Source: Steinernema hermaphroditum (Eukaryota > Nematoda > Chromadorea > Rhabditida > Steinernematidae). Taken from it: a stretch of 64,000 bases of DNA. The position numbers and the translations under genes were made by a program. Shown in pieces: positions 25,538 to 45,722 of the stretch (positions are counted from its first letter, which is position 1; each line of letters starts with the position of its first letter). The notes below the pieces were generated by a model, which saw only the letters and a program-made list of their open reading frames with translations, ran no database searches and had not been told where the DNA came from. The DNA is taken from positions 16,182,001 through 16,246,000 of the forward strand of contig CM059622.1 of NCBI GenBank assembly GCA_030435675.1, given 5' to 3'.

Positions 25538-26707
25538 ATGAGAGTCATCCTTGTCCTTGCAGTCCTGTGGACAGCTTCCCTAGCGTTCCTCGTGGAGAAG
25601 GTCGAGGAGCCTTCAGTCTTTCCCGAAAGCTATGAGGCCTTCATGGAATTGGGCCAAAAAGCGGCCATTCACCTCAACGAATCACGTCTGGTAGGTGTAA
25701 ATTTGAGAAGATGGACATGCCCTTCTAGGTCTTTGGCGGCCAACGCGCCGGTCTTGGCTACTTCCCATACGAAGCTTTCCTCAGCTACCAGAGTAGTAAA
25801 GGTGGTAGCTACATCTGCGGAGCCTCTTTGGTCACCACCACTCATGTCATCACTGCCGCTCACTGTGCCTACGACTTGGTTGCAGGAAAACTCCTCTTCG
25901 GCACGGTCAATCTCCAGCAGCAAGGTCCCAACACCCAGGCCCGGAAGATCACTAACAAGATCGTACATACTGGATATGTGCCCGGACAGAATGGAATCCA
26001 CAACGACATCGCCATCTTAGAGGTATGTCGAGTTTCCATAACAAAATATAGCTTGGATTGACGATACTTATGGTGAGGTCTCGTGCATCCAGGGACATGC
26101 ATAAACTTTTTTAAAACCTCGATTGATTTCTGCGAAACTTGTAACTTCCCTTTGTTTCAGTTCAGTCCCGCCGTTAGCCTCAATAAGGACGTCCAAATCG
26201 TGAAGATCCCATCGAACGACGCCCCGGTTCTCTCTTCTGGAAAAGCCATCGTCTCCGGCTTCGGAACCTACACCTGTAAGCCAAAATTGTTGTAATGCAC
26301 ATGCACTCTATATGTGTTTAGTCCGTGGAGGCCAGTCCGTGACCAGCCAGCAAATGCTCTACGCCGAGGTTGACCTCGTTCAGAAGGCCACGTGCCGTCA
26401 GCGCTGGCGCGGCGTTCCCATCGTCGACAGCCAGCTCTGCGCCGGATCCCGTGGGAAGGGCGTCGGACCTGGCGATAGCGGAGGACCCATCCAGGTCAAA
26501 CACAACGGTCAGCTCTACCAAGTCGGGCTGTCGTCTTTCGTTGCATCCGATGAGCGTATGATGCAGTACGGTCAGGACCAGATTCCGAACGTCTTCACGC
26601 GCGCTTCGTCGTTCTGCACCTTCATCAGTCAGGGCACTCGAGGAGGATTTCGATGCGTCGATGCCAACGGCGCTGGAGCTGGCGACTGTCGTCCTTCTGG
26701 GCGTTAG
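25538..26707 (+). CDS. Secreted S1 serine protease, paralogue A (315 aa)
   Basis: Four exons: 25538-25690, 25729-26022, 26161-26275, 26322-26707. The protein has a signal peptide (MRVILVLAVLWTASLAFL), an unusually long acidic propeptide of about 30 residues, then VFGGQRAG as mature start; the first intron lies exactly at that boundary. The triad is intact: TAAHC, HNDIAILE, GDSGGP. Cysteines of the 42-58 and 168-182 disulphides are visible (YICG/AAHC and ATCRQ/QLCAG), but C191 and its partner C220 are both absent (GVGPGDSGG; GLSSFVAS). Position 189 is Gly. An enzyme with altered substrate preference is likely, possibly digestive. The gene faces paralogue B across an SL1 gene pair. The promoter has ATAAAAGAAGG about 40 bases upstream of the start codon. 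Confidence 0.88.
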
Positions 26708-26829
26708 ATCTTGTACTATATTTGTATAACCATGTGTATAATGTATAACCGATAAAGAAGAAGTATTTCACAGCATACTTTTTTGCACAATTACTAGTTG
26801 TACACCTTCCGTCAAGCATTTTCTTATAA
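26708..26829. other. 3' UTR of protease A and 3' flank of SL1 gene
   Basis: A TACTATATTTGTATA stretch and a GATAAAGAAGAAG motif (variant polyadenylation signal) are shared with the 3' UTR of paralogue B. The block GTACACCTTCCGTCAAGC before the SL1 gene is also found, inverted, after the SL1 gene ending at 34149. Confidence 0.5.
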
Positions 26830-26923
26830 GCATCTCGAAGGAGACGCAGTTCCAAAATTTATCTCGCCACTTTCATTTGAAAGAGCGGATCTAATGTTTA
26901 CCTCAAACTTGGGTAATTAAACC
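26830..26923 (-). ncRNA. SL1 spliced leader RNA
   Basis: Read on the minus strand from 26923, the sequence begins with the exact 22-nt nematode SL1 leader (26923-26902), followed at once by the donor GTAAAC. Then come an internal stem-loop, the Sm-type site ATAAATTTTGGAAC, and a terminal hairpin GCGTCTC-CTTC-GAGATGC. Length, order and Sm site match C. elegans SL1 RNA. The RNA donates its leader to pre-mRNA 5' ends by trans-splicing. It is divergent from the SL1 gene at 27178. Confidence 0.97.
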
Positions 26924-27177
26924 GACGACGGAGAGGTGTGGAGGCACTTGTGCCGGGAGCGACTATTGCGTTGCAGTGCTGTAGGGTGTCTACTCCAGAT
27001 ACGCAGAGAAATGTCTCGCACTGGCCGCGTCGCTTCTCCGCGCGCAAAAGAGCAACACCGACCATAACTTACGCTGCAGTCGCGATAGATTTCTCTTTTT
27101 CTCTGCATTAGGCATTCCACAGCGCTGCGACGAGACGGTCCCTCCCCACACAAGTGCCTCCACACCGCATCATCGTC
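26924..27177. promoter_or_regulatory. Bidirectional SL1/SL1 promoter (254 bp, palindromic)
   Basis: This 254-bp spacer separates two divergent RNA starts and is a near palindrome. On the plus side, CGGTCCC begins at 27136, 42 bases before the RNA start, inside a longer conserved block (GACGAGACGGTCCCTCCCC then ACACAAGTG). The U1 and U5 genes here carry the same core at the same distance, so it is the proximal sequence element (PSE) of snRNA-type genes. The minus-strand arm holds the diverged copy AATAGTCGCTCCC. An 82-codon open frame across the spacer is a by-product of the palindrome. Confidence 0.85.
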
Positions 27178-27272
27178 GGTTTAATTACCCAAGTTTGAGG
27201 TAAACATTAGATCCGCTCTTTCAAATGGAAGTGGCGAGATAAATTTTGGAACTGCGTCTCTTTAGAGATGCT
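27178..27272 (+). ncRNA. SL1 spliced leader RNA
   Basis: The leader is exact at 27178-27199 with donor GTAAAC; an internal hairpin follows (about 27209-27238, with GGAAGTGGC). The Sm-type site ATAAATTTTGGAAC lies at about 27240-27253 and the terminal hairpin GCGTCTC-TTTA-GAGATGC ends at 27272. Divergent partner of the SL1 gene at 26923. Confidence 0.97.
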
Positions 27273-27471
27273 TATAAGAATTGTATCACCAGAAACCGAT
27301 CAAACAGATCAATTTTAGCACCGCGTCCGGAGAGGAACGCTCACAATAAGATAGTGATCAAGCTGCACATAACTGTAAGAACTGTAAGATGACATGCTTC
27401 TTCTTCATTGGTTACACATATTGACTATACAAATATAATACAACGTCTAATGCCCTGACGGACGGCGGCCG

Positions 27472-28566
27472 TTATCCGTTGACATGGGCGCATCGGAATC
27501 CGCCTCGAGTGCCCTGACTGATGAAGGAGCAGAACGACGAAGCGCGCGTGAAGACATTCGGAATCTGGTTTTGTTCGTATTGCATCTTGTAGTTATCGGC
27601 CACAACGAAAGACGACAGCCCGACTTGGTAGAGCTGGCCGTTGTGTTTGACCTGGATGGGTCCTCCGCTGTCGCCGGGTCCGACGCCCTTTCCACGGGAT
27701 CCGGCGCAAAGCTGGCTGTCGATAATGGCACCGCCCCAACGCTGCCGGCACGTGGCCTTCTGGACGAGGTCAACCTCGGCGTAGAGCATTTGCTGGCTGG
27801 TTACGGACTCTTCTCCGCGGACTAAAGGCATACAAAGTGCATGTGTGGAACAACGAATGCTTACAGGTGTAAGTTCCGAAACCGGAGACGATGGCTCTTC
27901 CAGAAGAGAGAATCGGGGCGTCGTTTGATGGAATCTTTACGATTTTGACGTACCTATTGAGCCTAACAGCGGGACTGAACTGAAACGTGGGGAAGTTATA
28001 GGTTTCGAAGCAGACAAGCCCAACCGAGGCGTGTGACAAGTTTGTACATATCCCCCAATGCGTAAGAGCTCGACATACCTCTAATATGGCGATGTCGTTG
28101 TGAACTCCACTCTGTTCGGGCACATATCCAGTATGTACGATCTTGTGAGTGATCGTTCGGGTCTGAGCGTTGGGACCTTGCTGCTGGAGATTAACCGCAC
28201 CGAAGAGGAGTGTTCCTCCAGTCAAGTCGTAGGCACAGTGAGCGGCAGTGATGACATGAGTGGTGGTGACCAAAGAGGCTCCGCAAATGTAGCTTTGGCC
28301 GTCACGGCTCTGGTAAGTAAGGAAAGCTTCGTAGGGGAAGTCGCCAAGCCGAGCGCGTCGGCCGCCAAAGACCTAGAAGGGAGTGTCCACAGTCTCAAAT
28401 TTAGACCTACCAGACGTGATTCGTTTAGGTGAATGGCCGCCTTTTGGGCCAGTTCCATGAAGGCCTTATGACTCTCGGGAAAGGCCAAAGGCTCCTCGAC
28501 CTTCTCTACGAGGAACGCTAGAGAAACTGCCAATAGGACTACAAGGACAAGGATGACTCTCATCAT
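27472..28566 (-). CDS. Secreted S1 serine protease, paralogue B (304 aa)
   Basis: Four exons on the minus strand: 28566-28411, 28372-28079, 27979-27865, 27821-27472. Intron positions and phases are the same as in paralogue A, and exons 2 and 3 are the same length. Signal peptide (MMRVILVLVVLLAVSLAFL), acidic propeptide, VFGG mature start, and triad TAAHC / HNDIAILE / GDSGGP are all present. As in A, C191/C220 are missing and position 189 is Gly. The C-terminus stops earlier (...RCAHVNG), losing the Gly/Arg-rich tail of A. The promoter has GGATATAAAAGAAGG near 28596-28610, matching A. A and B are mirror images about a centre near 27051. Confidence 0.88.
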
Positions 28567-28846
28567 TGGTGAGCTGATCTAGGCGGTTCATGGCCTTCTT
28601 TTATATCCGACTGATACGGGGCCTCGTGAAAACAACATCAGTTCGTTCAAACAACATTCTAAAGGACACTGTTAGTGATCAGAAGACAATGTACTTTTTA
28701 AGTGCGACAGTGCTGATAATACGTAAGATATTAAGAAAGTGCGCGAGAAAAACATGACTATTTCGAGCACATAACAATGTGTTAACTTGACACAATGCTG
28801 GTACATTCAAATATGTACGTTCTACTTTGGCTTCCACAGATCGACT

Positions 28847-29846
28847 ATGGATACCATATCGCAACTCTTCATCGAAGCCGTCATCGATTTGAACTGTAGC
28901 ACGTCTGATAGGTCCAACTTCGCGAAACTCTCTTCGTACTGGGGAGATCGCGCAACCTATGTCATCAAGAATCGAATCGAAATCGCCCTATACATCAATT
29001 TCGCACCAAAGAAAGGAAAACGCCGATTGGAACGCAACAGGGAGCAGCTTTACTATGGATTCTATCGCGGTGTACAGAATGTCTCCAAGCAAGTATTTGA
29101 CGATCCTCGACGTCATGCCATTACGAACATCAATGTCTACGAATACTACCGTACCAACCGCTTCCTCTGCAAGAGGATGACCGCTGACGATGCTGAAAAA
29201 CTAAAGCAGATTCTGGTCAACAATTGTCAACCTATTGAAATCCTCCATTTCGAGCAATTTCCATTTAGAGAGAGCGGTGAATTTTGGGATCTTATAGACG
29301 TCATCCCGGCTATAAGGAGATTCGAACAAGGAGCTAATGTGCACCACAACGTGCAGAGGATGAACGAATCCATCAAGAAGCTATGCGCAGGAGGTTGCTT
29401 AGAGTATTGGAAAAACGAATGGATGGATCGACAACCCACTGGGACTCGACTTCGTTAACCTCTACGACATGACAGAAGGACCCCGAACAACAAATCATGC
29501 TGAAGCCTACCATAGCGCACAGCGCCATTATTGGCGATCTCCACATATGCCACTAGGAGAATGGCTAGCTACGTTCCAGAATGTACAGCATGCGGAGGAA
29601 ACGAGGATCCGAGATGTCCTCCTGCTAAGGATCGAACCCCGTCCTCGCCATCCTACAGCAATTGCGAACGACGAGAAGCTGCAAGAAGCCCGCAGGAGAT
29701 TGGAAGACATACTGGATTCCGGCACAAGCGTCGAAGAATTTTGGGAATTCGTCGAAAAGTATCTGACAAGAGTAGGAGCAGTAATAGGATATAATGTCCA
29801 AAGGGACCAGGACACCTCAGAAGAACTGCTCACTACAGAATCTTAA
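28847..29846 (+). pseudogene. MULE-transposase-like gene with a frameshift
   Basis: Two long frames follow each other: 28847-29458 (204 codons) and a second frame open through 29846. The second contains EGPRTTNHAEAYHSAQRHYW, which looks like the C-terminal region of MULE-type transposases (TNNxxEGxH-like block followed by a helical tail). The first frame ends ...LEYWKNEW, and the second frame, read slightly upstream of its first ATG, gives GWIDNPLGLDFVNLYDM. The natural join is therefore near 29415-29425, beside an AAAAA run, suggesting a one-base indel or an assembly error. The N-terminal half (VYEYYRTNRFLCKRM...) resembles nothing I can name firmly; a nematode F-box-associated domain is one option. 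It lies inside the snRNA island. Confidence 0.5.
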
Positions 29847-30148
29847 TATTTATAGTCCCGAATTGTATAGTATGCATTGAGTAAATTATTACATTCCAAG
29901 ATTGCGCACAGAAAATTACGCAAGTTCGCGCGAAACTAATGCCATTTAAAACCGATGCCACATTCGCGCAAACTGACCGATTTTGATTCGCGCAAACTGA
30001 CCGTTCGCGCAAACTGACCGGGTGTCTTTCTTATACGCATACCCCAGATGACTGCCATTTCTACGCGTATTCTTTTGGCCTAAACGACCACAGACTCTTG
30101 GGACGGTTGACGATGGCCCAAAACTAATTTAGGTACCAGGTAGTCTTA
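29847..30148. other. Short spacer with CGCGCAAACTGACCG repeats
   Basis: Between the broken MULE-like gene and the next MITE, the phrase TTCGCGCAAACTGACCG occurs twice close together (about 29961-30020) with a partial third copy. No gene is seen. Confidence 0.5.
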
Positions 30149-30649
30149 CAAGGGAACATCCCCAAGTGTCCGACGAGTTAGGAGCTGAGATGTGGCGCGG
30201 CTTGTAGACGGTCTTCTAACTAAGAAAACGCACATAATCTCATCGGCCATAAATCAGTCGGGCTACCATAAAGATGGTCATGAAGTTGCAAGGTCTCCTG
30301 GTGCGATGTCCCTGACTAGTCAGAATATACGGTATTTTTGTCCGATTTTGGACGGGGTTTTTAAGGATTTCGGCATTTAGAGCCAAAATTAACATTACCA
30401 GTTAACAACCATGTTCTTTTAGCAAGAAAAGGGGTCAAAAAATGACAAAAAAACTGACAAAAATACCGTATATTCTGACTAGTCAGGGACATCGCACCAG
30501 GAGACCTTGCAACTTCATGACCATCTTTATGGTAGCCCGACTGATTTATGGCCGATGAGATTATGTGCGTTTTCTTAGTTAGAAGACCGTCTACAAGCCG
30601 CGCCACATCTCAGCTCCTAACTCGTCGGGCACTTGGGGATGTTCCCTTG
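30149..30649. mobile_element. Palindromic MITE with CAAGGGAA ends and TTA duplication
   Basis: Left arm about 30149-30345 and right arm about 30455-30649 are near-perfect inverted copies. The ends CAAGGGAACATCCCC...GGGGATGTTCCCTTG are flanked by TTA on both sides (30146-30148, 30650-30652). Ends and duplication match the element at 6652-7524, so both belong to one family even though their interiors differ. The right end lies directly beside the truncated 3' end of an SL1 gene. Confidence 0.87.
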
Positions 30650-30663
30650 TTAGTCAATTTTCG

Positions 30664-30737
30664 TTCCAAAATTTATCTCGCCACTTCCATTTGAAAGAGC
30701 GGATCTAATGTTTACCTCAAACTTGGGTAATTAAACC
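30664..30737 (-). ncRNA. SL1 RNA gene lacking its 3' hairpin
   Basis: The leader is exact (30737-30716), the donor GTAAAC and internal stem-loop are intact, and the Sm-type site ATAAATTTTGGAAC is present. The terminal GCGTCTC...GAGATGC hairpin found in every other copy is missing: similarity ends after GGAAC and unrelated sequence leads to the MITE. Its promoter still pairs with a complete U1 gene. It may be non-functional or give an unstable transcript. Confidence 0.88.
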
Positions 30738-30983
30738 GACGACGTTGTGGTGCGGAGGCACTTGTGCGGGGAGCAACTATCTCGTTGCAGCGCTGTGAGG
30801 TTCCTAGTCCAGAGAAACAAAGAAATGCGGTGCGAGTCGTGATCGGCGGCGCTCTCGCTGTCGAAGCAATGCGAACGAGTAGTTTTTTGTGGGTCATTTC
30901 TCTGCTTCCCTGGGGTGGACACTGCGCACCGTTGCAACAAAACGGTCGCTCCCCACATAAGTGGCCAGCACTGGACGACTCAT
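30738..30983. promoter_or_regulatory. Bidirectional SL1/U1 promoter (246 bp)
   Basis: Between the divergent SL1 (30737) and U1 (30984) starts. On the U1 side CGGTCGC begins at 30943, 41 bases before the start, followed by TCCCCACATAAGTG, nearly the same as in the SL1 promoters. The last 45 bases before U1 (ending GACTCAT) are shared with the second U1 gene. The SL1 side has the GGAGCAACTATCTCGTTGCA version of the same element on the minus strand. Confidence 0.83.
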
Positions 30984-31146
30984 AAACTTACCTGGCTGGG
31001 ATCTCCCCGCGATCAGCAAGGCGGGGAATCCATGGCGAGGCTGGGACATTGCACTTTCGCTCCCGGCTGACCCGTGTGGCAGCTCCGAGTTGGAGTTGGC
31101 CAACAGCTAAATTTTTGAGTCAGGGGACAGCGTTCGCGCTTCCCCG
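30984..31146 (+). ncRNA. U1 snRNA
   Basis: The RNA begins AAACTTACCTGGCTGGG, the conserved U1 5' end that pairs with 5' splice sites. Downstream are the U1 landmarks GATCAGCAAGGCGGGG, GGCGAGGCTGGGACATTGCA (stem-loop II region), the Sm-type site TAAATTTTTGAGTC and the closing hairpin GCGTTCGCGCTTCCCC. At about 163 nt it matches the nematode length. It is the 5'-splice-site recognition RNA of the spliceosome. Confidence 0.96.
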
Positions 31147-31289
31147 CATAAATCATTTAATGTGGTCGGACGGGATCGCCGGCTTTCCCTTTTTTTAATG
31201 ATTTTTTGTGATTTTTTCAAACAGCCATACAATAGACTTAAACGGCAGTGTTCCCTTTTGCTAAGCGAGAAAGTCAAAACGAACTTTTT

Positions 31290-31375
31290 CTCTGTCTTCT
31301 CTGCCGTGGACACATCACACCGCCCCGTAGCGACGGTCGCATTTGCATGGCGTCGATCGGAGAAGATCGGTCGTC
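31290..31375 (+). promoter_or_regulatory. U5 snRNA promoter with PSE
   Basis: CGGTCGC begins at 31334, 42 bases before the U5 start, preceded by CCGCCCCGTAGCGA. A TTTGCATGGCGTCG block follows. Both U5 copies in the window keep this arrangement; in the second copy the core reads CGGTGGC at the same distance. Confidence 0.75.
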
Positions 31376-31495
31376 AGTCTCTGGAGTCGACGCAGTTAAC
31401 CGAGAAATTCTTTCGCCTTTTACTAAAGAATTCCGTGCGTCGACTCACTTTATGAGTTTATCTCAATTTTTGGAGTCCCGATCGCAAGAGAGGGA
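31376..31495 (+). ncRNA. U5 snRNA
   Basis: It contains the invariant U5 loop 1, CGCCTTTTACTAAAG, inside a long stem (GAATTCTTT...; GTCGACGC pairs with GCGTCGAC). Next come the Sm site CAATTTTTGGAG and a terminal hairpin ending GAGAGGGA. It starts with AGTCTCTGGAG like other U5 RNAs; the length is about 120 nt. U5 aligns the exons in the spliceosome. Confidence 0.95.
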
Positions 31496-31720
31496 TAATT
31501 AATGAATACATAAATAAGGAGCCACTGGTCATTGGAAAGAAAAGTGTATACGCTCTTTACAGACCGTTTGAATCATTCTCATAGAAAGTGAGAGAAGATG
31601 AGACGTGTGAAAGGCCACCTCTAAATAACACTGGTGAAGATGAAAAGAACAGCCGATGTTAAAGATTGACGTTCCCCTTGTGATTTACACAAATTCAGCA
31701 CGGCTCAATACAAAAAGATT

Positions 31721-31791
31721 TGCATCGGCCGGGAATCGAACCCGGGCCGGCCGCGTGGCAGGCGAGCATTCTACCACTGAACCACCAATGC
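31721..31791 (-). tRNA. tRNA-Gly(GCC)
   Basis: 71 nt. Anticodon loop CTGCCAC gives anticodon GCC; A box TGGTTCAGTGGTAG and B box GGTTCGATTCC are intact. The acceptor stem contains a T-G pair, and there is one C-C mismatch at the base of the anticodon stem relative to the other two copies. This one may be weaker or drifting. A T-run terminator follows on the minus strand. Confidence 0.9.
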
Positions 31792-31921
31792 TCTCATTGG
31801 TCTGTGTCGTCCGTCGATATCCCACCAAAACACCACCCGAAAACGTAAACAACTACTTTGTGCTTATAGATCTGTAATCGCCAAGGAGCGAAGTGTTGGC
31901 GAATTTCTTAAATAGGTGCAG

Positions 31922-32180
31922 AGATGGAATACCGGACGCAGCGATTGAAACGGTTATGGAGAAAATAAACAGGAATATCCGGGGCTAAATTAGCTTCGCG
32001 GGTGTGCCGGGTTGATTGAAAAAGCTACACATTAAACCGCTTCTGACGTGTAGCTCTTTGTCCCAAAGTGTAGTTCAATTATTTGTCTACACTGTGCGCA
32101 CCGGCGAAGCTAAGTTACCTCCGATATTCCTGCTTATTTTGTCCATAACCGTTTCAATCGCTGCGTCTGGTATTCCATCT
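31922..32180. mobile_element. Short inverted-repeat element (MITE)
   Basis: The left arm (AGATGGAATACCGGACGCAG and inward) and the right arm (ending ACCAGACGCAGCG-type complement, ...TATTCCATCT at 32180) are inverted copies of about 85 bp separated by about 90 bp. There is no coding sequence. The minisatellite begins immediately after its right end. Confidence 0.8.
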
Positions 32181-32181
32181 T

Positions 32182-32411
32182 AAGGCGCAGAACCACTTCG
32201 GCGCAGACCTACTTAGGGCGGAGAACCACTTAAGGCGCAGAACCACTTAGGGCGCAGAACCACTTAGGGCGCAGAACCACTTAGGGCGCAGAACCACTTC
32301 GGCGCAAAACCACTTAGGGCGCAGAACCACTTAAGGCGCAGAACCACTTCGGCGCAAAACCACTTAGGGCGGAGAACCACTTAGGGCGCAGAACCACTTA
32401 GGGCGCAGAAC
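32182..32411. repeat. Minisatellite, 16-17-bp unit, about 13.7 copies
   Basis: Unit AGGGCGCAGAACCACTT, with variants AAGGCGC..., CGGCGCA... (one base shorter) and a GGAGAA form. The variants recur in a pattern, suggesting duplication of multi-unit blocks. It abuts the right end of the preceding MITE. Confidence 0.93.
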
Positions 32412-32537
32412 AAGGTCGCGTGTTTGACACCGCCCAGTGTCTTTAACGTGCCATAAGCAGACGTGTGACAACACGACGGAAACGCTGACGACTGTTGTCA
32501 CGATTCGTCCCTCGTCAGGACTTTTGTCTCATAAGAT

Positions 32538-33196
32538 ATGCCGGCGAGAACATGTGGCGTAAAGCCTGAGCTACCCATAATCGCCGCCGAAGCTGATGAA
32601 CAGCCTACCGTTGTTGATGAGTGAGTGTTTTGAATTTGCACGTTTAAGCGTAATTGTTTTAGCATTCAAAAGAAACCCGACGAAAAAGAAGAGATCCTGT
32701 TCGAGGAGGCTTCTACAAAACGGACACGGACGAAAACAACCGGAAAAGGAGCTTACATGCATGGAGGCTTCACTTATCGGCGCGATCGAGAACTTAGAAA
32801 GCAACCTGGGAAGATATCGTTCAGATGCGTCGATCGTCAATGCTCTTCTCGAGCTCATATAGACTCTATTACTCACAGAGGACGCGTTGTAGTGCCTCAT
32901 AACCATGGGCCCGATATGGTTGATAAACAGGTAATATTCCTTTCTTCTTGCCAAACAAACTGAAATCGCCTGTGATTGTTGAGATCCGCCTTGCCCATGA
33001 CCAGCTTGAGCAGATGGCGCGTACGTCCGCGTCGACGACCTCTGACGCTCTTGCAAATAGGAATGCCGTCATTGCTATTCGTAGCAACCTGTCCGCAGAA
33101 GCGTTAACCCGTGCAACAGATTCTTCCGCTTTTACGCGATGGTTTCAACGTCGGCGTCACAAAATTCGTCTTTCTTATCATTGTCCCAATCAGTAG
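32538..33196 (+). CDS. FLYWCH-type zinc finger protein (187 aa)
   Basis: Three exons: 32538-32620, 32663-32930, 32984-33196. Residues about 59-113 look like a FLYWCH domain: a GGFTYRRDREL start, the FRCVDRQC cysteine pair, hydrophobic VVVP and the closing HNH. The order C-x4-C...H-x-H fits the fold, although the usual W before the first Cys is F. FLYWCH domains bind DNA; in worms they occur in transcription regulators and in MULE-type transposons. The N-terminus is acidic then Lys/Thr-rich; the C-terminus is Ala/Ser-rich with a basic end (WFQRRRHKIR). The last acceptor could also be at 33001. A host regulator or a piece of a transposon are both possible; the broken MULE-like gene 3 kb away makes the second plausible. 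Confidence 0.65.
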
Positions 33197-33429
33197 TTGT
33201 TTTTTGTTAACGTTATAAATTTTTGATTTCAAAATTTAATGTTGTGACACCGGATTTTTGTTCTCGCCTTCGTCGGTATATCTTATAAGACGGCGGTGCT
33301 CGTTTGCGCTCCGAAGCGATGCGGTCTTTTCGTGTGATAGATTTCTCTGCTTCTCTGGAGTAGGCACCCCACAGCGCTGCAGCGAGACAGTCGCTCCCCA
33401 TACAAGTGCCTCGGTACCAGGTCATCGTC
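33197..33429. promoter_or_regulatory. Upstream region of the SL1 gene at 33430
   Basis: CAGTCGC begins at 33388, 42 bases before the SL1 start, inside GAGACAGTCGCTCCCCA-TACAAGTG, so the PSE is present with one core change. Unlike the other SL1 promoters, no divergent RNA gene is visible on the other side: the region runs into the FLYWCH gene's 3' end. A TTATAAGATATA sequence lies at about 33281-33292. Confidence 0.65.
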
Positions 33430-33523
33430 GGTTTAATTACCCAAGTTTGAGGTAAACATTAGATCCGCTCTTTCAAATGGAAGTGGCGAGATAAATTTTG
33501 GAACTGCGTCTCTTTGGAGATGC
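33430..33523 (+). ncRNA. SL1 spliced leader RNA
   Basis: The leader is exact at 33430-33451, donor GTAAAC, Sm-type site ATAAATTTTGGAAC, terminal hairpin GCGTCTC-TTTG-GAGATGC. It is tail-to-tail with the SL1 gene at 33801. Confidence 0.96.
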
Positions 33524-33707
33524 ATATGAATAAGTACATAAGTAAGTACCTTTCTCCGATTCTTACTATGTTTTGAATGAAAGATAGAACAGTCGAAGAA
33601 GCCTCCGTCGTGTGCTAACCAAGCTTGGCTCCTAAAACGCAGCAGATCTCTCTTTTTCAAATTGCTCTACTTACCGTCTAGAACAGCGCTTTGTGTTATG
33701 ATTATAA

Positions 33708-33801
33708 GCATCTCGAAAGAGACGCAATTCCAAAATTTATCTCGCCACTTTCATTTGAAAGAGCGGATCTAATGTTTACCTCAAACTTGGGTAATTAAAC
33801 C
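33708..33801 (-). ncRNA. SL1 spliced leader RNA
   Basis: Read from 33801 on the minus strand: exact leader (33801-33780), donor GTAAAC, Sm-type site ATAAATTTTGGAA, terminal hairpin GCGTCTC-TTTC-GAGATGC. Divergent from the SL1 gene at 34056. Confidence 0.96.
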
Positions 33802-34055
33802 GACGTCGATATGGTGTGGAGGCACTTGTGCCGGGAGCGACTATTGCGTTGCAGTGCTGTAGGGTGTCTACTCCAGATACGCAGAGAAATCTTTCGCACT
33901 GGCCGCGTCGCTTCTCCGCGCGCAAAAGAGCAACACCGACCATAACTTACGCTGCAGTCGCGATAGATTTCTCTTTTTCTCTGGATTAGGCAACCCACAG
34001 CGCTGCGACGAGACGGTCCCTCCCCACACAAGTGCCTCCACACCACATCATCGTC
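33802..34055. promoter_or_regulatory. Bidirectional SL1/SL1 promoter (254 bp)
   Basis: Same length and near-identical sequence as the spacer at 26924-27177, including the plus-side CGGTCCC at 34014, 42 bases before the SL1 start, and the minus-side AATAGTCGCTCCC. Small differences occur mainly next to the start sites. Confidence 0.85.
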
Positions 34056-34149
34056 GGTTTAATTACCCAAGTTTGAAGTAAACATTAGATCCGCTCTTTC
34101 AAATGGAAGTGGCGAGATAAATTTTGGAACTGCGTCTCTTTCGAGATGC
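34056..34149 (+). ncRNA. SL1 RNA with a variant last leader base
   Basis: The first 21 leader bases are canonical, but base 22 (34077) is A instead of G, so the donor context changes from GAG|GTAAAC to GAA|GTAAAC. The rest of the RNA is intact: Sm-type site ATAAATTTTGGAAC and terminal hairpin GCGTCTC-TTTC-GAGATGC. The copy at 35499 carries the same variant. Confidence 0.95.
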
Positions 34150-34289
34150 TTATAAGAAAATGTTTGACGGAAGGTGTACGGTAAGGTAAGCAAGTAAAGT
34201 AAGTGAGAGGCATCTTCTGTTCTGTTTTCTAAAAGTGTTCAAACTTCATAAAAGTGAAAAAAGGGTCTATGTTCCAATAGTGGTTGTGT

Positions 34290-34475
34290 TGTGAGCTTCG
34301 TTGTGAGCTTCCCGGCTTCCAGAGGGAATTGGGACACCCGGAAGCCGTAGTCCCACCACCGTTCACAACACGATATCCGACGTGAAGAATCCGGCCACGT
34401 GAGAAGCCATTCCAATGGTTGCCGACGCTCGAAGACGCAACTCCCGGACCAAGACGCAATGCTTCTGTGATAAGG
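34290..34475 (+). repeat. Fragment of the retroposon family
   Basis: The hairpin CGGCTTCC...GGAAGCCG and the following TAGTCCCACCACCG block match the middle of the three full-length copies at 36340, 47742 and 58311. Both ends of the element are missing, so this is an old fragment. Confidence 0.75.
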
Positions 34476-34691
34476 TATCTCAGCTCGTAGCCACATTAAA
34501 TTTACGCTATCTTGTCCGGTCATTATTCTCGTAATAAATTCGGGGCTCATCCAGTTGTTCTTGCAATAACCAATCTCATTTTGGCTACTCTTCATTAATG
34601 CTTCACTCATCTTTTCTGTGAGAATGATTCAAACGGATATGTAAAAAGTGTAGATAGCTTTCTCTCCAATGACCAGTTGCTCCTTTTATTA

Positions 34692-34811
34692 TCCCTCTCT
34701 CGCGATCGGGACTCCAAAAATTGAAACAAACTCATAAAGTGAATCGACGCACGGAATTCTTTAGTAAAAGGCGAAAGAATTTCTCGGTTAACTGCGTCGA
34801 CTCCAGAGACT
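34692..34811 (-). ncRNA. U5 snRNA, second copy
   Basis: Loop 1 CGCCTTTTACTAAAG is identical to the first copy, as are the flanking stem, the Sm site CAATTTTTGGAG and the terminal hairpin GTCCCGATCGCGAGAGAGGGA-like end. Only a few bases differ. The promoter core CGGTGGC lies 42 bases upstream (34847-34853). Confidence 0.94.
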
Positions 34812-35108
34812 GACGACCGATCCTCTCCGATCGACGCCATGCAAATGCCACCGTCGCTACGGGGCGGTGTGGTGTGTCCACGACAGAGAAGGCAGAGAAA
34901 AAGTTCGTTTTGACTTTCTCGCTTAGCAAAAGGGAACACTGCCGTTTAAGTCTATTGTATGGCTGTTTGAAAACATCAACATCGGGGAACGAATTGCGTA
35001 ACAAAGGGAAAGCCGGCGATGTTGGTTCACCAACATTGTATGATTTGTGCAGGGAATGCATGGCTCATAGCGCTTTTAAAACTGACAAACATCAGATACA
35101 AAAAGTAT

Positions 35109-35179
35109 TGCATCGGCCGGGAATCGAACCCGGGCCGCCCGCGTGGCAGGCGAGCATTCTACCACTGAACCACCGATGC
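35109..35179 (-). tRNA. tRNA-Gly(GCC)
   Basis: 71 nt with a fully paired acceptor stem (GCATCGG/CCGATGC), anticodon loop CTGCCAC (GCC) and intact A and B boxes. A TTTTT terminator follows on the minus strand. It shares upstream sequence (GATATCCCACCAAAAC) with the copy at 31721-31791. Confidence 0.96.
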
Positions 35180-35405
35180 TTCTGTTACTGCGCGTACTCC
35201 ACTGATATCCCACCAAAACGCCGCCCGAAAACGTATTTTGTACATATCAAGCCCTGACAATATTTCAGGTCGCTCATCTTTGTACAAAAATCTTTACAGT
35301 GCAAATAGACGCGATTTTAGTGATTTTCTTGCACAGTTCAGATATTTGTTCGATGATCTGATGTTTATCAGCTTTACAAGCGCTAGCTTATAAGCCATAT
35401 TATAT

Positions 35406-35499
35406 GCATCTCGGAAGAGACGCAGTTCCAAAATTTATCTCGCCACTTCTATTTAAAAGAGCGGATCTAATGTTTACTTCAAACTTGGGTAATTAAACC
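35406..35499 (-). ncRNA. SL1 RNA with a variant last leader base
   Basis: Read from 35499 on the minus strand, the leader ends GAA instead of GAG (35478), with donor GTAAAC, as in the copy at 34056. The internal stem has two further changes (TTTTAAATAGAAG). The Sm-type site and terminal hairpin (GCGTCTC-TTCC-GAGATGC) are intact. Confidence 0.95.
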
Positions 35500-35753
35500 G
35501 ACGATGGTGCGGTGTGGAGGCACTTGTGTGGGGAGCGACCGTCTCGTCGCAGCGCTGTGGAATGCCTAATGCAGAGAAAAAGAGAAATCTATCGCGACTG
35601 CAGCGTAAGTTATGGTCGGTGTTGCTCTTTTGCGCGCGGAGAAGCGACGCGGCCAGTGCGAGACATTTCTCTGCGTATCTGGAGTAGACACCCTACAGCA
35701 CTGCAACGCAATAGTCGCTCCCGGCACAAGTGCCTCCACACCTCTCCGTCGTC
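35500..35753. promoter_or_regulatory. Bidirectional SL1/SL1 promoter (254 bp)
   Basis: The third spacer of exactly 254 bp. It is the spacer of 26924-27177 in inverse orientation: here the CGGTCGC core belongs to the minus-strand gene and the diverged TAGTCGC (35712) to the plus-strand gene. Confidence 0.84.
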
Positions 35754-35847
35754 GGTTTAATTACCCAAGTTTGAGGTAAACATTAGATCCGCTCTTTCAA
35801 ATGGAAGTGGCGAGATAAATTTTGGAACTGCGTCTCTTCAGAGATGC
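35754..35847 (+). ncRNA. SL1 spliced leader RNA
   Basis: The leader is exact at 35754-35775, donor GTAAAC, Sm-type site ATAAATTTTGGAAC, terminal hairpin GCGTCTC-TTCA-GAGATGC. Confidence 0.96.
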
Positions 35848-36030
35848 TTATTACAGAGAGATGAGAGTTGAGGGTGAGAAGAGCGACGTTATTTACGGTA
35901 CATGTTCCTTTTATGACTTCTATGATACATCACATGGCGGTAAGCACACAAAGTAGACTGCTCCGATCTGTTTATGCAAATAAACATCGGTTGTTCTTTT
36001 CACCTTCACCATGGTCAAATCATATTTGTG

Positions 36031-36193
36031 CGGGGAAGCGCGAACGCTGTCCCCTGACTCAAAAATTTAGCTGTTGGCCAACTCCAACTCGGAGCTGCCA
36101 CACGGGTCAGCCGGGAGCGAAAGTACAATGTCCCAGCCTCGCCATGGATTCCCCGCCTTGCTGATCGCGGGGAGATCCCAGCCAGGTAAGTTT
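36031..36193 (-). ncRNA. U1 snRNA, second copy
   Basis: Read from 36193 on the minus strand: AAACTTACCTGGCTGGG, GGCGAGGCTGGGACATTG, Sm-type site TAAATTTTTGAGTC, final hairpin GCGTTCGCGCTTCCCC. It is almost identical to the copy at 30984. The PSE core CGGTCGC is at 36228-36234, 41 bases upstream, and the last 45 upstream bases are shared between the two copies. Confidence 0.96.
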
Positions 36194-38647: not shown

Positions 38648-38718
38648 TGCATCGGCCGGGAATCGAACCCGGGCCGCCCGCGTGGCAGGCGAGCATTCTA
38701 CCACTGAACCACCGATGC
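38648..38718 (-). tRNA. tRNA-Gly(GCC)
   Basis: 71 nt, identical in its mature part to the copy at 35109-35179, with a TTTTGTTTTTTAT terminator on the minus strand. Flanks are mostly different from the other copies apart from GGATATCCC just upstream. Confidence 0.96.
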
Positions 38719-38812: not shown

Positions 38813-38884
38813 GCGTCTGTGGTGTAATGGTCAGCATGGTTGCCTTCCAAGCAATCGACAGGGGTTCGATTCCCCTCAGACGCA
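38813..38884 (+). tRNA. tRNA-Gly(TCC)
   Basis: 72 nt: acceptor GCGTCTG/CAGACGC, A box TGGTGTAATGGTCAGC, anticodon loop CTTCCAA (anticodon TCC), B box GGTTCGATTCC and terminal A. A TTTT terminator follows. It is divergent from tRNA-Gly(GCC), about 95 bp away. Confidence 0.96.
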
Positions 38885-43046: not shown

Positions 43047-45722
43047 ATGGTGCGTATCGGCGGCATGGCCTCGCCGAAGAGTCCAACCTACATCGCGCTC
43101 GACAACTCGCTCTACAAACAGTGCGGTGGCGATAACGATGGCGCTCTCAAGAGTAAGCTCACTGATCCCGGTGGACCTTCATGCTTTATTCACATTTCCA
43201 GAGCTGAGCCGAACGAGCAAGATCCATCTTCTGCTCATCCTCTTCTCCGTCTTCGCCTCCACTTTGATCGTTTCCGCTTTGATCGCTGGACTCTATTGCC
43301 GTTTCGACTATGTGAGCTTCAAGGAACTTCGCGAGGATGGTGAGCTTTCATCTCAAGAACCATCTGATTCCCCAAGTTTCAGTTGTCCCTGTCGAAGTAC
43401 TCATCGACGAAACTGAAGCCGGTCTACCAAGCACCCATATTCGTCCACCGGAAGTGTCTCACAGCAACGGATTTAAGGAGGCTTCGCGCTACTTGAACAA
43501 GCTTATCGATACGTCGGTGGACCCATGCGACAACTTCTACAAGTACTCCTGTGGAAACTTCGTCAAGAACAACATGAGTAACGCTTTCGTGGCTGTGCAG
43601 AAGAAGGCCGATGAGGATATCTTCAAGCAGCTGAAGACCACCGATAATACGGTACGTATTTTGGCTAGGACACCTTGACCTGTATCCCATTTTAGGATCT
43701 GAAAGCCCTGCAGACCACCAAGACGGTCTACGACGTCTGCGCCTCCACCGACTACTCGAAGTACACCGGCAAAGAAGTTCTCGACATCGTGCGCTCCTTC
43801 AAACGCGCCTCCGGCCTCAACTTCCCCTTCATCGACAAGCGCTGGCACGAGACCGCCGACCCGAAGTTCACTCCTGTGCAACTCGCCTCCACCCTGGCCC
43901 TCATGAAGTCCGTTTTCGGCGTTGACAGCATCGTCGAGATCGACGTGGACACCAACTGGGCCAACCCCGCCGGCAAGAACCCCTACTTGATGCACATCGG
44001 CGAAGCGTCGCTTTCCCTTCCCACCGTCTTCTACCGCAACGGTCATTTCGACGAGCAGAAAGGAAACGTCGAGAAGCAGATGCGCAACGTTCTCACCAAG
44101 ATCGCCCAAGTGGCCAAGGTGCAGGTGGACAAGCAGACCATCGAAGACACGATCTCCCAGATGCTCGAAGTGGAGAAGGCCCTTGGCAAGTTGATGCGTC
44201 TTCCCGAGGAGACGCGCACCGTTTCCGAGGAATGGAACCTGTTCACCATCGCGCAGGCCAAGGCACGCTGGAGCTTCATCGACTTCCCCACCTATTTCCG
44301 TTTTGTCGCCATCGACAACGCCAAGGTGCAGAAGATGGTCACCGGCGAGAAGTTCCAGTTCGTTGTCACGTCGCCTAAGTACCTGGACGGCATCGAGAAG
44401 CTCATCAAGGAGAGCACGGTCAGCGACTACGGCCTCCGCAACTACTTGATGTTCCGTCTGATCGCGTCGAAGGTGAAGTTCCTCGGAAAGAGCCAGCTGC
44501 AAGCCGGCGACGACGCCGTCCCCTCCGACAAGGTGCACCACGGCTGTGTTGGCTATCTGCGCACCAAGATGCCCTACGCCGTCGGCCGTAGCTACGTCGA
44601 CAGCAAGGCGAAGGCGGAGCGCGAGAGCATCGAAAAGAAGCTGATGCGCATGGCCAATTACATCGGCACCGCCTTCCAGACGATGATCGACGAACTGCCG
44701 TGGATGACGCGCGAGGACAAGCGCCGCGCCACCGAGAAGATCTACCAGCTGGTGAAGACCGTCGGCGCGCCTGAGTGGATTCTCAACGACCAGAAGTTCA
44801 CCGACTACCACAAGGACCTGGTCATCGACCCGAAAGACGATTTCTTCAATGTGCAGCTGAAGCTTGACCGCTTCCACCATGGAAAGAGCCTTGCCTTCCT
44901 CGTCAGGGACAAGATCGATCGCACCGATTTCTCCTCGATCTCCCCGGCTACCGTCAACGCCTGGTACCAGGCTCATCTGAACTCGATCAGCTTCCCTCTG
45001 GCTACCCTTCAGGCTCCGTTCTTCGACACCGAATGGCCGGTAAGTGGACGAAACCATACTGCAAACACTCAATAGGATCCTATGACCGACTTTTCCTCTA
45101 TACCTTGTCTCCAGAGATCTTTGGACGTGATTCTACCAACCATCCTTTTCAGCTTTCGCTCAGCTTCGGCGGCATGGGTTCCACGATGGGCCACGAACTG
45201 TCGCACGGCTTCGACGACGGCGGAATGCAGTGGGACCCCACCGGCACCTTCAAGAGTTGGATCTCGAGTAACAAGACCAAGTCGGGCTTCGAACGCATGC
45301 GCGTCTGCGTCGTTAACCAGTACGACCAAGTGTGCCCTTATGGCGAAGGCAAGAGCTGCGTGAACGGCAAGATGACGCAGGGCGAAAACATCGCCGACAA
45401 CGCCGGAGTCCGCGCCGCCTACCGCGCCTACAAGTCGCTCGTTGCGCTTGACGGACCGGAACCCCGTCTTCCCGGAGCGCTCACCTCCCAGTATACCCAC
45501 GATCAGCTCTTCTTCATCGGCTATGCAGGAGTGTGGTGCAAGGCCGAGCAGAAGGAGGAGGAGTTCAGCAGACAGGTCATCATCGACGTCCACTCGCCCG
45601 ATCGCGAGCGCGTGCTCGAGTCGCTCAAGAACTTCGCCGCCTTCCAGGACGCCTTCAACTGCCCCGCCACCACCACGATGGCGCCCAAGAGACACTGTAA
45701 TGTGTGGGCCGGCGATAACTAA
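43047..45722 (+). CDS. M13 (neprilysin/ECE-type) zinc metallopeptidase, 808 aa
   Basis: Five exons: 43047-43152, 43202-43339, 43383-43651, 43696-45039, 45153-45722; all GT/AG, frame consistent. It is a type II membrane protein: a cytosolic stretch of about 40 residues, a membrane segment at about 44-68 (IHLLLILFSVFASTLIVSAL), then a large ectodomain. The M13 N-terminal signature is present (DPCDNFYKYSCGNF). In the catalytic part, NAWY is the substrate-binding NAxY motif, HELSH the zinc site with its catalytic Glu, and ENIADNAG supplies the third ligand; the C-terminal CNVW box is kept. The enzyme should be active. M13 enzymes trim extracellular peptides such as neuropeptides and hormones. Exon 4 is GC-rich with strong codon bias, suggesting high expression. 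AATAAA follows at about 45769. Confidence 0.93.

Follow-up and report, generated by a model that had tools for sequence, protein, structure and literature searches.

Dispersed SL1 and U1 RNA genes of Steinernema hermaphroditum form divergent pairs, some of which may share an upstream promoter element

Genes for trans-splicing and cis-splicing RNAs start back to back at several places in the genome of the nematode Steinernema hermaphroditum, which raises the question whether such neighbors share a promoter. The locus considered here is a 9.4-kb island of genes for the spliced leader (SL) RNA SL1 and for the small nuclear RNAs (snRNAs) U1 and U5. It lies in C2:16,182,001–16,246,000 (C2 being contig CM059622.1), a stretch of 64,000 nt with a G+C content of 45% that was analyzed as a whole and is called the window hereafter, in a 90.65-Mb assembly of 60 contigs, five of which measure 16.7–18.4 Mb. 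A preliminary description had counted eight SL1, two U1 and two U5 genes in the island, an inventory that Rfam and a leader search reproduced, and had proposed that head-to-head neighbors use shared bidirectional promoters. We consider it probable that C2 holds a stretch of dispersed genes with promoters of the type bound by the snRNA-activating protein complex (SNAPc), with the pair as copying unit and with the element-less partner of a one-element pair using the upstream element of its neighbor.

The identity of the genes had to be settled before their arrangement. Both U1 and both U5 genes of the window are full length (model positions 1–166 of Rfam RF00003 and 1–117 of RF00020) and exceed the gathering score, whereas all eight SL1 genes match RF00198 (positions 1–103) at 30.1–38.3 bits, and none of them reaches its gathering score of 75 bits, which is the curators' cut-off and not a biological feature. 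Despite these scores the loci are, as judged from their sequence, SL1 RNAs, because leader, splice donor, Sm site and a three-part fold occur together. Six leader copies are exact and two carry one mismatch (G22A, at SL1 34056 and SL1 35499; window genes are named after their start), while 100 dinucleotide shuffles gave no copy at all; a GT donor directly after the leader and the Sm site AAATTTTGG, which is expected between the second and third stem of the fold, are present in all eight genes. The fold was examined in 22 SL1 sequences, taken from 66 distinct forms and one mutated partner with SL1 30737 left out: 98.9% of the pair cells were standard, compared to 31–46% in slid controls, and three base pairs were changed on both sides, a number reached by 3 of 500 shuffles. 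For one SL1 the fold z-score was -2.49. The last stem is kept in seven window genes. SL1 30737 departs from the consensus after ...AAATTTTGGAAC and lacks the 3' stem, so that seven of the eight genes are full length and the eighth is a probable damaged copy. A foldback repeat adjoins this truncated gene (30145–30653; 205-nt arms, 98% complementary, 99 nt apart); Rfam matches to MIR at 30293–30505 fall inside the repeat and below the cut-off and were discarded. Genome-wide, Rfam found no SL1 at the gathering score, but the controls gave none either, and SL1 genes were therefore located by pattern searches. Since 27 of the first 30 listed places of the SL1 22-mer are not SL1 genes, the 367 genomic places of this 22-mer are not a gene count.

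The island is not isolated. The window cuts through a stretch of about 2 Mb of C2 with many dispersed SL1, U1 and U5 genes, hereafter the domain. Among the matches listed, C2 15.3–17.4 Mb holds at least 57 SL1, 39 U1 and 13 U5 genes, with 55 on the plus and 54 on the minus strand; per snRNA family only the best candidates were scored, so that all census counts are lower bounds. Thirty-nine of the 42 scored U1 matches lie at 15.59–17.35 Mb and the remaining three elsewhere on C2. All 42 candidates scored were matches, so that the U1 list is probably short; a 5'-end pattern added two copies from this stretch and Rfam another four. Within the domain, neighbors whose starts are less than 400 bp apart are divergent in 32 of 41 cases, convergent in 3 and tandem in 6 (p=1.6e-12 against 25%), and those less than 1 kb apart in 33, 13 and 13 of 59 cases (p=4e-7), although both p-values overstate independence, as related copies were treated as independent. 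The 1-kb figure is the fairer one, because convergent genes need space for both RNAs; when distance is disregarded, 40 of the 108 neighbors are divergent and 39 are convergent. The 32 divergent pairs (17 SL1/SL1, 11 SL1/U1 and 4 U1/U1) lie at C2 15.33–16.34 Mb and include 64 of the 109 listed domain genes (45/57 SL1, 19/39 U1, 0/13 U5). Their starts are 188–366 bp apart, closer than the 1 kb by which bidirectional promoters are defined. Eight of the 13 U5 genes lie 338–547 bp downstream of a U1 gene and share its strand, or nine if one further Rfam U1 is counted. Consequently, the co-location and divergent pairing claimed for the island are real and far from random. Its spacings of 254, 254, 254 and 246 bp are exactly the intervening distances of four divergent pairs; neither U5 gene, nor SL1 33430, nor U1 36193 belongs to such a pair, to which extent the head-to-head picture was too broad. 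A misassembly of the island is unlikely, because the same pair design occurs 32 times.

All these genes appear to carry promoters of one kind. A core resembling the proximal sequence element (PSE) was found at -51 in 74 of 75 SL1, at -50 in 24 of 25 U1 and in 3 of 3 U5, at -51/-52 in 6 of 6 U4 and at -59/-60 in 4 of 4 U6 genes examined; some scores are low, and neither U2 nor the SL1 at C1 17.42 Mb yielded a score. U6 promoters have an AATAAAA-like box in addition. A PSE-matrix scan of the window returned the 12 genes and nothing else above threshold, with a matrix partly trained on them. The fixed distance of the PSE-like element across snRNA types and the TATA-like box of U6 point to SNAPc-type promoters, at which SNAPc would bind and transcription would start. 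Besides this core, most genes examined outside the ribosomal DNA (rDNA) have a second motif near -88, TTTCTCTG-N1-2-TTCTCTG, which resembles a distal sequence element (DSE) and is called the upstream element below. Exact copies occur at 90 places in 90.6 Mb, compared to 2 and 1 for reversed-pattern controls, and 62 of the 90 lie 78–93 bp before a listed start. When all remaining 28 places were read, ten proved to be Rfam-confirmed genes (four U1, six SmY), as the motif had predicted. A PSE-like site accompanies 15 of the 28, nine of them Rfam-confirmed; the six unconfirmed ones comprise one U4-like fragment, four copies of an unassigned RNA and one other. The other 13 places have no PSE-like site, one of them being a U1. 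Because most of its places lie ahead of listed starts and others predicted further U1 and SmY genes, the upstream element is, on this sequence evidence, a genuine and predictive part of the promoter.

Two groups of loci came to light through this element. Five of the six SmY genes form a 32-kb cluster at C1:14.07–14.10 Mb and the sixth lies at C1:14.683 Mb. At C4:12.834–12.863 Mb four near-identical RNA-like copies stand behind a perfect upstream element and a PSE; they contain an Sm-like TATAATTTTTTG together with a stretch that resembles a hairpin, and gave no Rfam match at E 0.1.

With both promoter parts at hand, the question of sharing can be addressed. In the window's four divergent pairs each gene has its own PSE-like and its own upstream element. 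Full promoters thus stand on both sides and sharing is not needed there, contrary to what had been proposed for the window. The domain as a whole suggests a different picture. Scored out of 15, the upstream element is bimodal (12–15 versus at most 11, with 0.3% of shuffles scoring 12 or higher), and it is present on both sides in 13 of the 32 domain pairs, on one side in 19 and on neither side in none, while random dealing among paired SL1 would leave 2.9 pairs without any (P=0.013). One-element pairs are shorter, 188–252 bp and mostly about 220 bp, than two-element pairs with 221–366 bp (p=3.0e-5). All 20 element-less domain genes are SL1 genes that face an element-bearing gene. In contrast, the element is present in all 46 genes for SL1, U1 or U5 that were classed as unpaired (Fisher p=7.2e-6), where unpaired means without a partner among the matches listed. 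One gene at first classed in this way, the element-less SL1 15581724, proved to face a mutated, element-bearing SL1; if this pair is included, one upstream element stands for two genes in 20 of 33 pairs. On C3, each of the two U4 pairs examined carries the element at just one of its genes, and it is present in the two unpaired U4 genes examined. Element-less genes that occur only in pairs with an element-bearing partner are what promoter sharing predicts. Thus shared promoters, although absent from the window's pairs, are suggested for the one-element pairs of the domain and the two U4 pairs, and on these patterns promoter sharing in one-element pairs is plausible.

Besides the kinship of the copies and the loose sense of unpaired, several points weigh against this conclusion. 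Thirteen of the 32 domain pairs need no sharing at all. The data had already been seen when the threshold was chosen and two promoter types were distinguished, and an earlier model with a single spacer had misjudged U5 and distal U1, which like U4 appeared element-less until the two-spacer model overturned that assignment. Outside the domain, the upstream element is missing from seven SL1 genes at C2 10.93–10.97 Mb (three divergent pairs and one single), from the U2 and both SL1 genes in those rDNA units that were examined and from the SL1 at C1 17.42 Mb; either some promoters can do without it, or these genes are silent. Finally, a short motif, CCACGAC, immediately precedes the PSE of 12 out of 20 element-less domain SL1 genes, but of none of the 37 element-bearing ones, and may take the place of the upstream element.

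This motif leads to an explanation without sharing: SL1 genes without the TTTCTCTG element would form a second promoter class that uses CCACGAC as another activator site, and the pairing of the classes would have been inherited from founder pairs. As judged by eye, the C2 10.9-Mb pairs show CCACGAC, or a sequence close to it, on each side, and the one-element pairs include related copies. However, the exact motif is absent from 8 of the 20 element-less SL1 genes, and nothing close to it occurs in at least four (SL1 15557246, 16037450, 16101348 and 16108606). Furthermore, SL1/SL1 and SL1/U1 pairs would require founders of separate origin, and the one-sided pattern recurs in the two U4 pairs. 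We regard two promoter classes as unlikely, at about one chance in a few, and prefer the use of the neighbor's element.

The extent of sequence identity within the domain concerns a different alternative. Between SL1 genes identity drops to chance level directly past the RNA end (+100) and, on the upstream side, by about -110, and U1 behaves alike. Seven matches between whole units reach at least 90% over at least 350 nt; they run for 417–489 nt, and five of them stop about 7 nt or less from the RNA ends on both sides. Because gene identity and unit matches end at the RNA ends, the pair is, as far as these alignments tell, a copied or homogenized unit. Copying might then account for the layout itself: palindromic pairs would multiply by inverted duplication through fold-back or template switching, together with gene conversion, and the loss of elements would be drift. 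The palindromic build could in itself promote inverted copying, and this alternative is the main rival to our interpretation. The three SL1/SL1 pairs of the window are each an inverted repeat with arms of 205–210 nt, 40 nt apart and 84–86% alike, and copies of pairs are 95–97% complementary across 452 nt, up to the RNA 3' ends. A larger inverted repeat, made up of trypsin gene pieces and centered near 27,070, even has pair 1 (center about 27,050) at its axis, and 4 of the 32 pairs have similar 3' flanks. On the other hand, the 3' flanks of 28 pairs are dissimilar over the approximately 200 nt examined, and SL1/U1 pairs join unlike RNAs, which a simple fold-back of one gene cannot yield. Drift alone explains neither why loss is confined to paired genes, with 0 of 46 unpaired genes affected, nor why no domain pair lost both elements. 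As full explanation we therefore find a by-product of copying rather doubtful, albeit less so than the two promoter classes.

A third alternative is that most copies of the domain are dead. Under such a scenario the domain would be a graveyard, and the working SL1 and U5 genes would be those of the C7 rDNA, a tandem array on C4 and a U5 cluster on C1. Some copies are indeed damaged: among the eight window SL1 genes, one is truncated and the leader is altered in two; the Sm site is altered in 2 of 57 domain SL1 genes; and the partner of SL1 15581724 carries two leader changes. Nevertheless, mean pairwise identity is 93–99% across SL1 nt 40–79 (nt 8–41 were fixed by the search pattern and not counted) and 88–100% across U1 nt 0–159, with chance level just outside. 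In addition, 39 of the 42 scored U1 matches lie in the domain, although more U1 may exist. A graveyard is thus highly improbable.

Elsewhere in the genome the other splicing RNA genes keep to regions of their own. U5 has 13 of its 33 matches at C2 16.2–17.4 Mb, 16 at C1 16.76–17.11 Mb and 4 elsewhere on C2, U4 has 17 of 18 at C3 4.46–4.73 Mb, and U6 has 17 of 21 at C3 14.6–15.6 Mb. C7 holds 19 of 20 U2 matches, the single outlier being weak (49.9 bits), and 36 of 43 5S matches. SL1 itself occupies three settings in one genome: the divergent domain, a tandem array at C4 13.376–13.387 Mb with at least 28 head-to-tail genes in steps of 365–468 bp, and the rDNA spacer with 5S and U2. The rDNA unit, read at C7:8001–18000, spans about 9.9 kb with the order 5S(+), U2(-), SL1(+), SL1(+), 5S(+), 18S(-), and 191 bp separate its divergent U2 and SL1 genes. 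The preliminary description had seen no 5S gene beside SL1. This is true of the window, where none was found at the Rfam gathering score and 5S and SL1 do not alternate in tandem; they do so on C7, and the implied loss of SL1-5S linkage is contradicted by rDNA units that carry two genes of each.

Table 1. Splicing RNA genes, divergent promoters and tRNA genes in and near the island (positions in the window)
Feature	Position	Strand	Details
SL1 RNA gene, pair 1	26827..26923	-	exact leader; PSE score 31.9; upstream element 13/15
Divergent promoter, pair 1, 254 bp	26924..27177		two PSE-like and two upstream elements
SL1 RNA gene, pair 1	27178..27274	+	exact leader
SL1 RNA gene without 3' stem	30663..30737	-	exact leader and Sm site; divergent from U1 30984
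Divergent SL1/U1 promoter, 246 bp	30738..30983		two PSE-like and two upstream elements
U1 snRNA gene	30984..31147	+	Rfam RF00003, 122.5 bits
U5 snRNA gene	31376..31496	+	Rfam RF00020, 84.9 bits; downstream of U1 30984, same strand
tRNA-Gly(GCC) gene	31721..31791	-	
SL1 RNA gene, no divergent partner	33430..33526	+	exact leader; PSE score 44.0
SL1 RNA gene, pair 2	33705..33801	-	exact leader
Divergent promoter, pair 2, 254 bp	33802..34055		two PSE-like and two upstream elements
SL1 RNA gene, pair 2	34056..34152	+	leader with G22A
U5 snRNA gene	34691..34811	-	Rfam RF00020, 80.8 bits
tRNA-Gly(GCC) gene	35109..35179	-	
SL1 RNA gene, pair 3	35403..35499	-	leader with G22A
Divergent promoter, pair 3, 254 bp	35500..35753		two PSE-like and two upstream elements
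SL1 RNA gene, pair 3	35754..35850	+	exact leader
U1 snRNA gene, no divergent partner	36030..36193	-	Rfam RF00003, 120.2 bits
tRNA-Gly genes, two more	38648-38718 and 38813-38884		

The window contains further features (Table 1). Its four glycine transfer RNA (tRNA-Gly) genes had not been mentioned before. Pieces of a trypsin gene flank SL1 pair 1 on both sides as an inverted repeat (25538–28570), and exons of an M13 (neprilysin-like) peptidase lie at 43789–45719. Nine protein matches to the peptidase exon show 22–28% identity; one is labeled Acidobacteriaceae and none is labeled as eukaryotic. The 27 SL1 22-mers outside SL1 genes, located on C1 and proximal C2, deserve a remark of their own. 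At 11 of these loci, compared pairwise, the 22-mer lies inside a repeat of 278–381 bp that resembles a long terminal repeat (LTR), 58–92 nt before the repeat end and directly preceded by a TATAAA-like run. Three same-strand pairs of such repeats, 4.7–9.7 kb apart and 97.8–99.7% alike, stand ahead of gag-like frames with DUF1759 in two cases and DUF7083 plus an aspartyl protease in one. One locus (L010) has a primer site that matches tRNA-Gly by eye, and another (L005) has TTTGAG in addition, which looks like trans-splicing of SL1 to the AAG inside a copied SL1. The R region of an LTR may have captured the SL1 leader.

Taken together, we propose the following arrangement. Gene identities, positions, the orientation bias, the motif positions and the restriction of the domain's element-less genes to pairs were observed directly. 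Each gene would have a SNAPc-type promoter with a PSE-like element near -50 and mostly a DSE-like element near -88. Two-element pairs (221–366 bp, those of the window included) would be two complete promoters back to back, while in one-element pairs the element-less partner probably depends on the upstream element of its neighbor. A divergent SL1/SL1, SL1/U1 or U1/U1 pair would behave as one copied unit. Both the use of the neighbor's element and a co-regulated supply of cis- and trans-splicing RNAs are conclusions that we infer from sequence patterns. A bolder version envisions SNAPc promoters that are truly bidirectional: a single upstream element would serve both PSEs and fire SL1 and U1 from one enhancer, and the pair would be the unit on which selection and copying act in a megabase splicing-RNA domain, with Sm-class RNAs (U1/SL1/U5, U5, U4, SmY, U2) and U6 in separate chromosome territories; it is conceivable, yet we would sooner bet against it than for it. 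If our proposal is true, dozens of pairs with one or two upstream elements would represent a natural experiment on the balance of SL1 and U1 supply. A candidate DSE-like element, which predicted unlisted U1 and SmY genes, would be added to nematode snRNA promoters, and a further set of SNAPc-type promoters gathered in a megabase region would stand beside the piRNA clusters of Caenorhabditis elegans.

How does this arrangement compare to known systems? It is real and unusual, and it is a variant of known clustering of snRNA and SL genes. Small RNA genes of trypanosomatids are divergent from tRNA genes that help to drive them. The proposal made here is similar in that a small RNA gene borrows part of a promoter from its divergent neighbor; in trypanosomatids, however, this neighbor is an RNA polymerase III (Pol III) tRNA gene with internal boxes, whereas here snRNA-type promoters stand on both sides. 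Multigene repeats in which 5S is linked to snRNA or SL genes occur in other animals and protists. There, too, unrelated small RNA families meet at one locus, and the C7 unit is of this kind, but those repeats are tandem, in contrast to the dispersed pairs of the C2 domain. Among the literature matches listed, mainly from freely accessible journals, no title or opening abstract describes the present arrangement. In Caenorhabditis, according to the accessible portion of the source, SL1 is multi-copy in a tandem 5S-SL1 repeat, and C. briggsae has two SL1 orientations relative to 5S (PMC8961926). The C7 array likewise keeps SL1 beside 5S, while the window SL1 genes are dispersed, divergent and beside U1 and U5 without 5S. 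For Oscheius tipulae, SL1 and 5S genes were reported to be unclustered, which resembles the location of SL1 away from 5S seen here; the available part of that report describes no divergent SL1/U1 pairs or snRNA domain (PMC8022731). SNAPc-dependent snRNA promoters of nematodes have one upstream motif, to which a TATA box is added in Pol III genes, and related piRNA promoters cluster in regions that span 2.5 and 3.7 Mb (PMC6436959). A second element near -88 that is uneven within pairs is not described in the accessible portion of that work, whereas the common motif and the gathering on a megabase scale are features that those promoters and piRNA clusters have in common with the C2 domain (PMC6436959).

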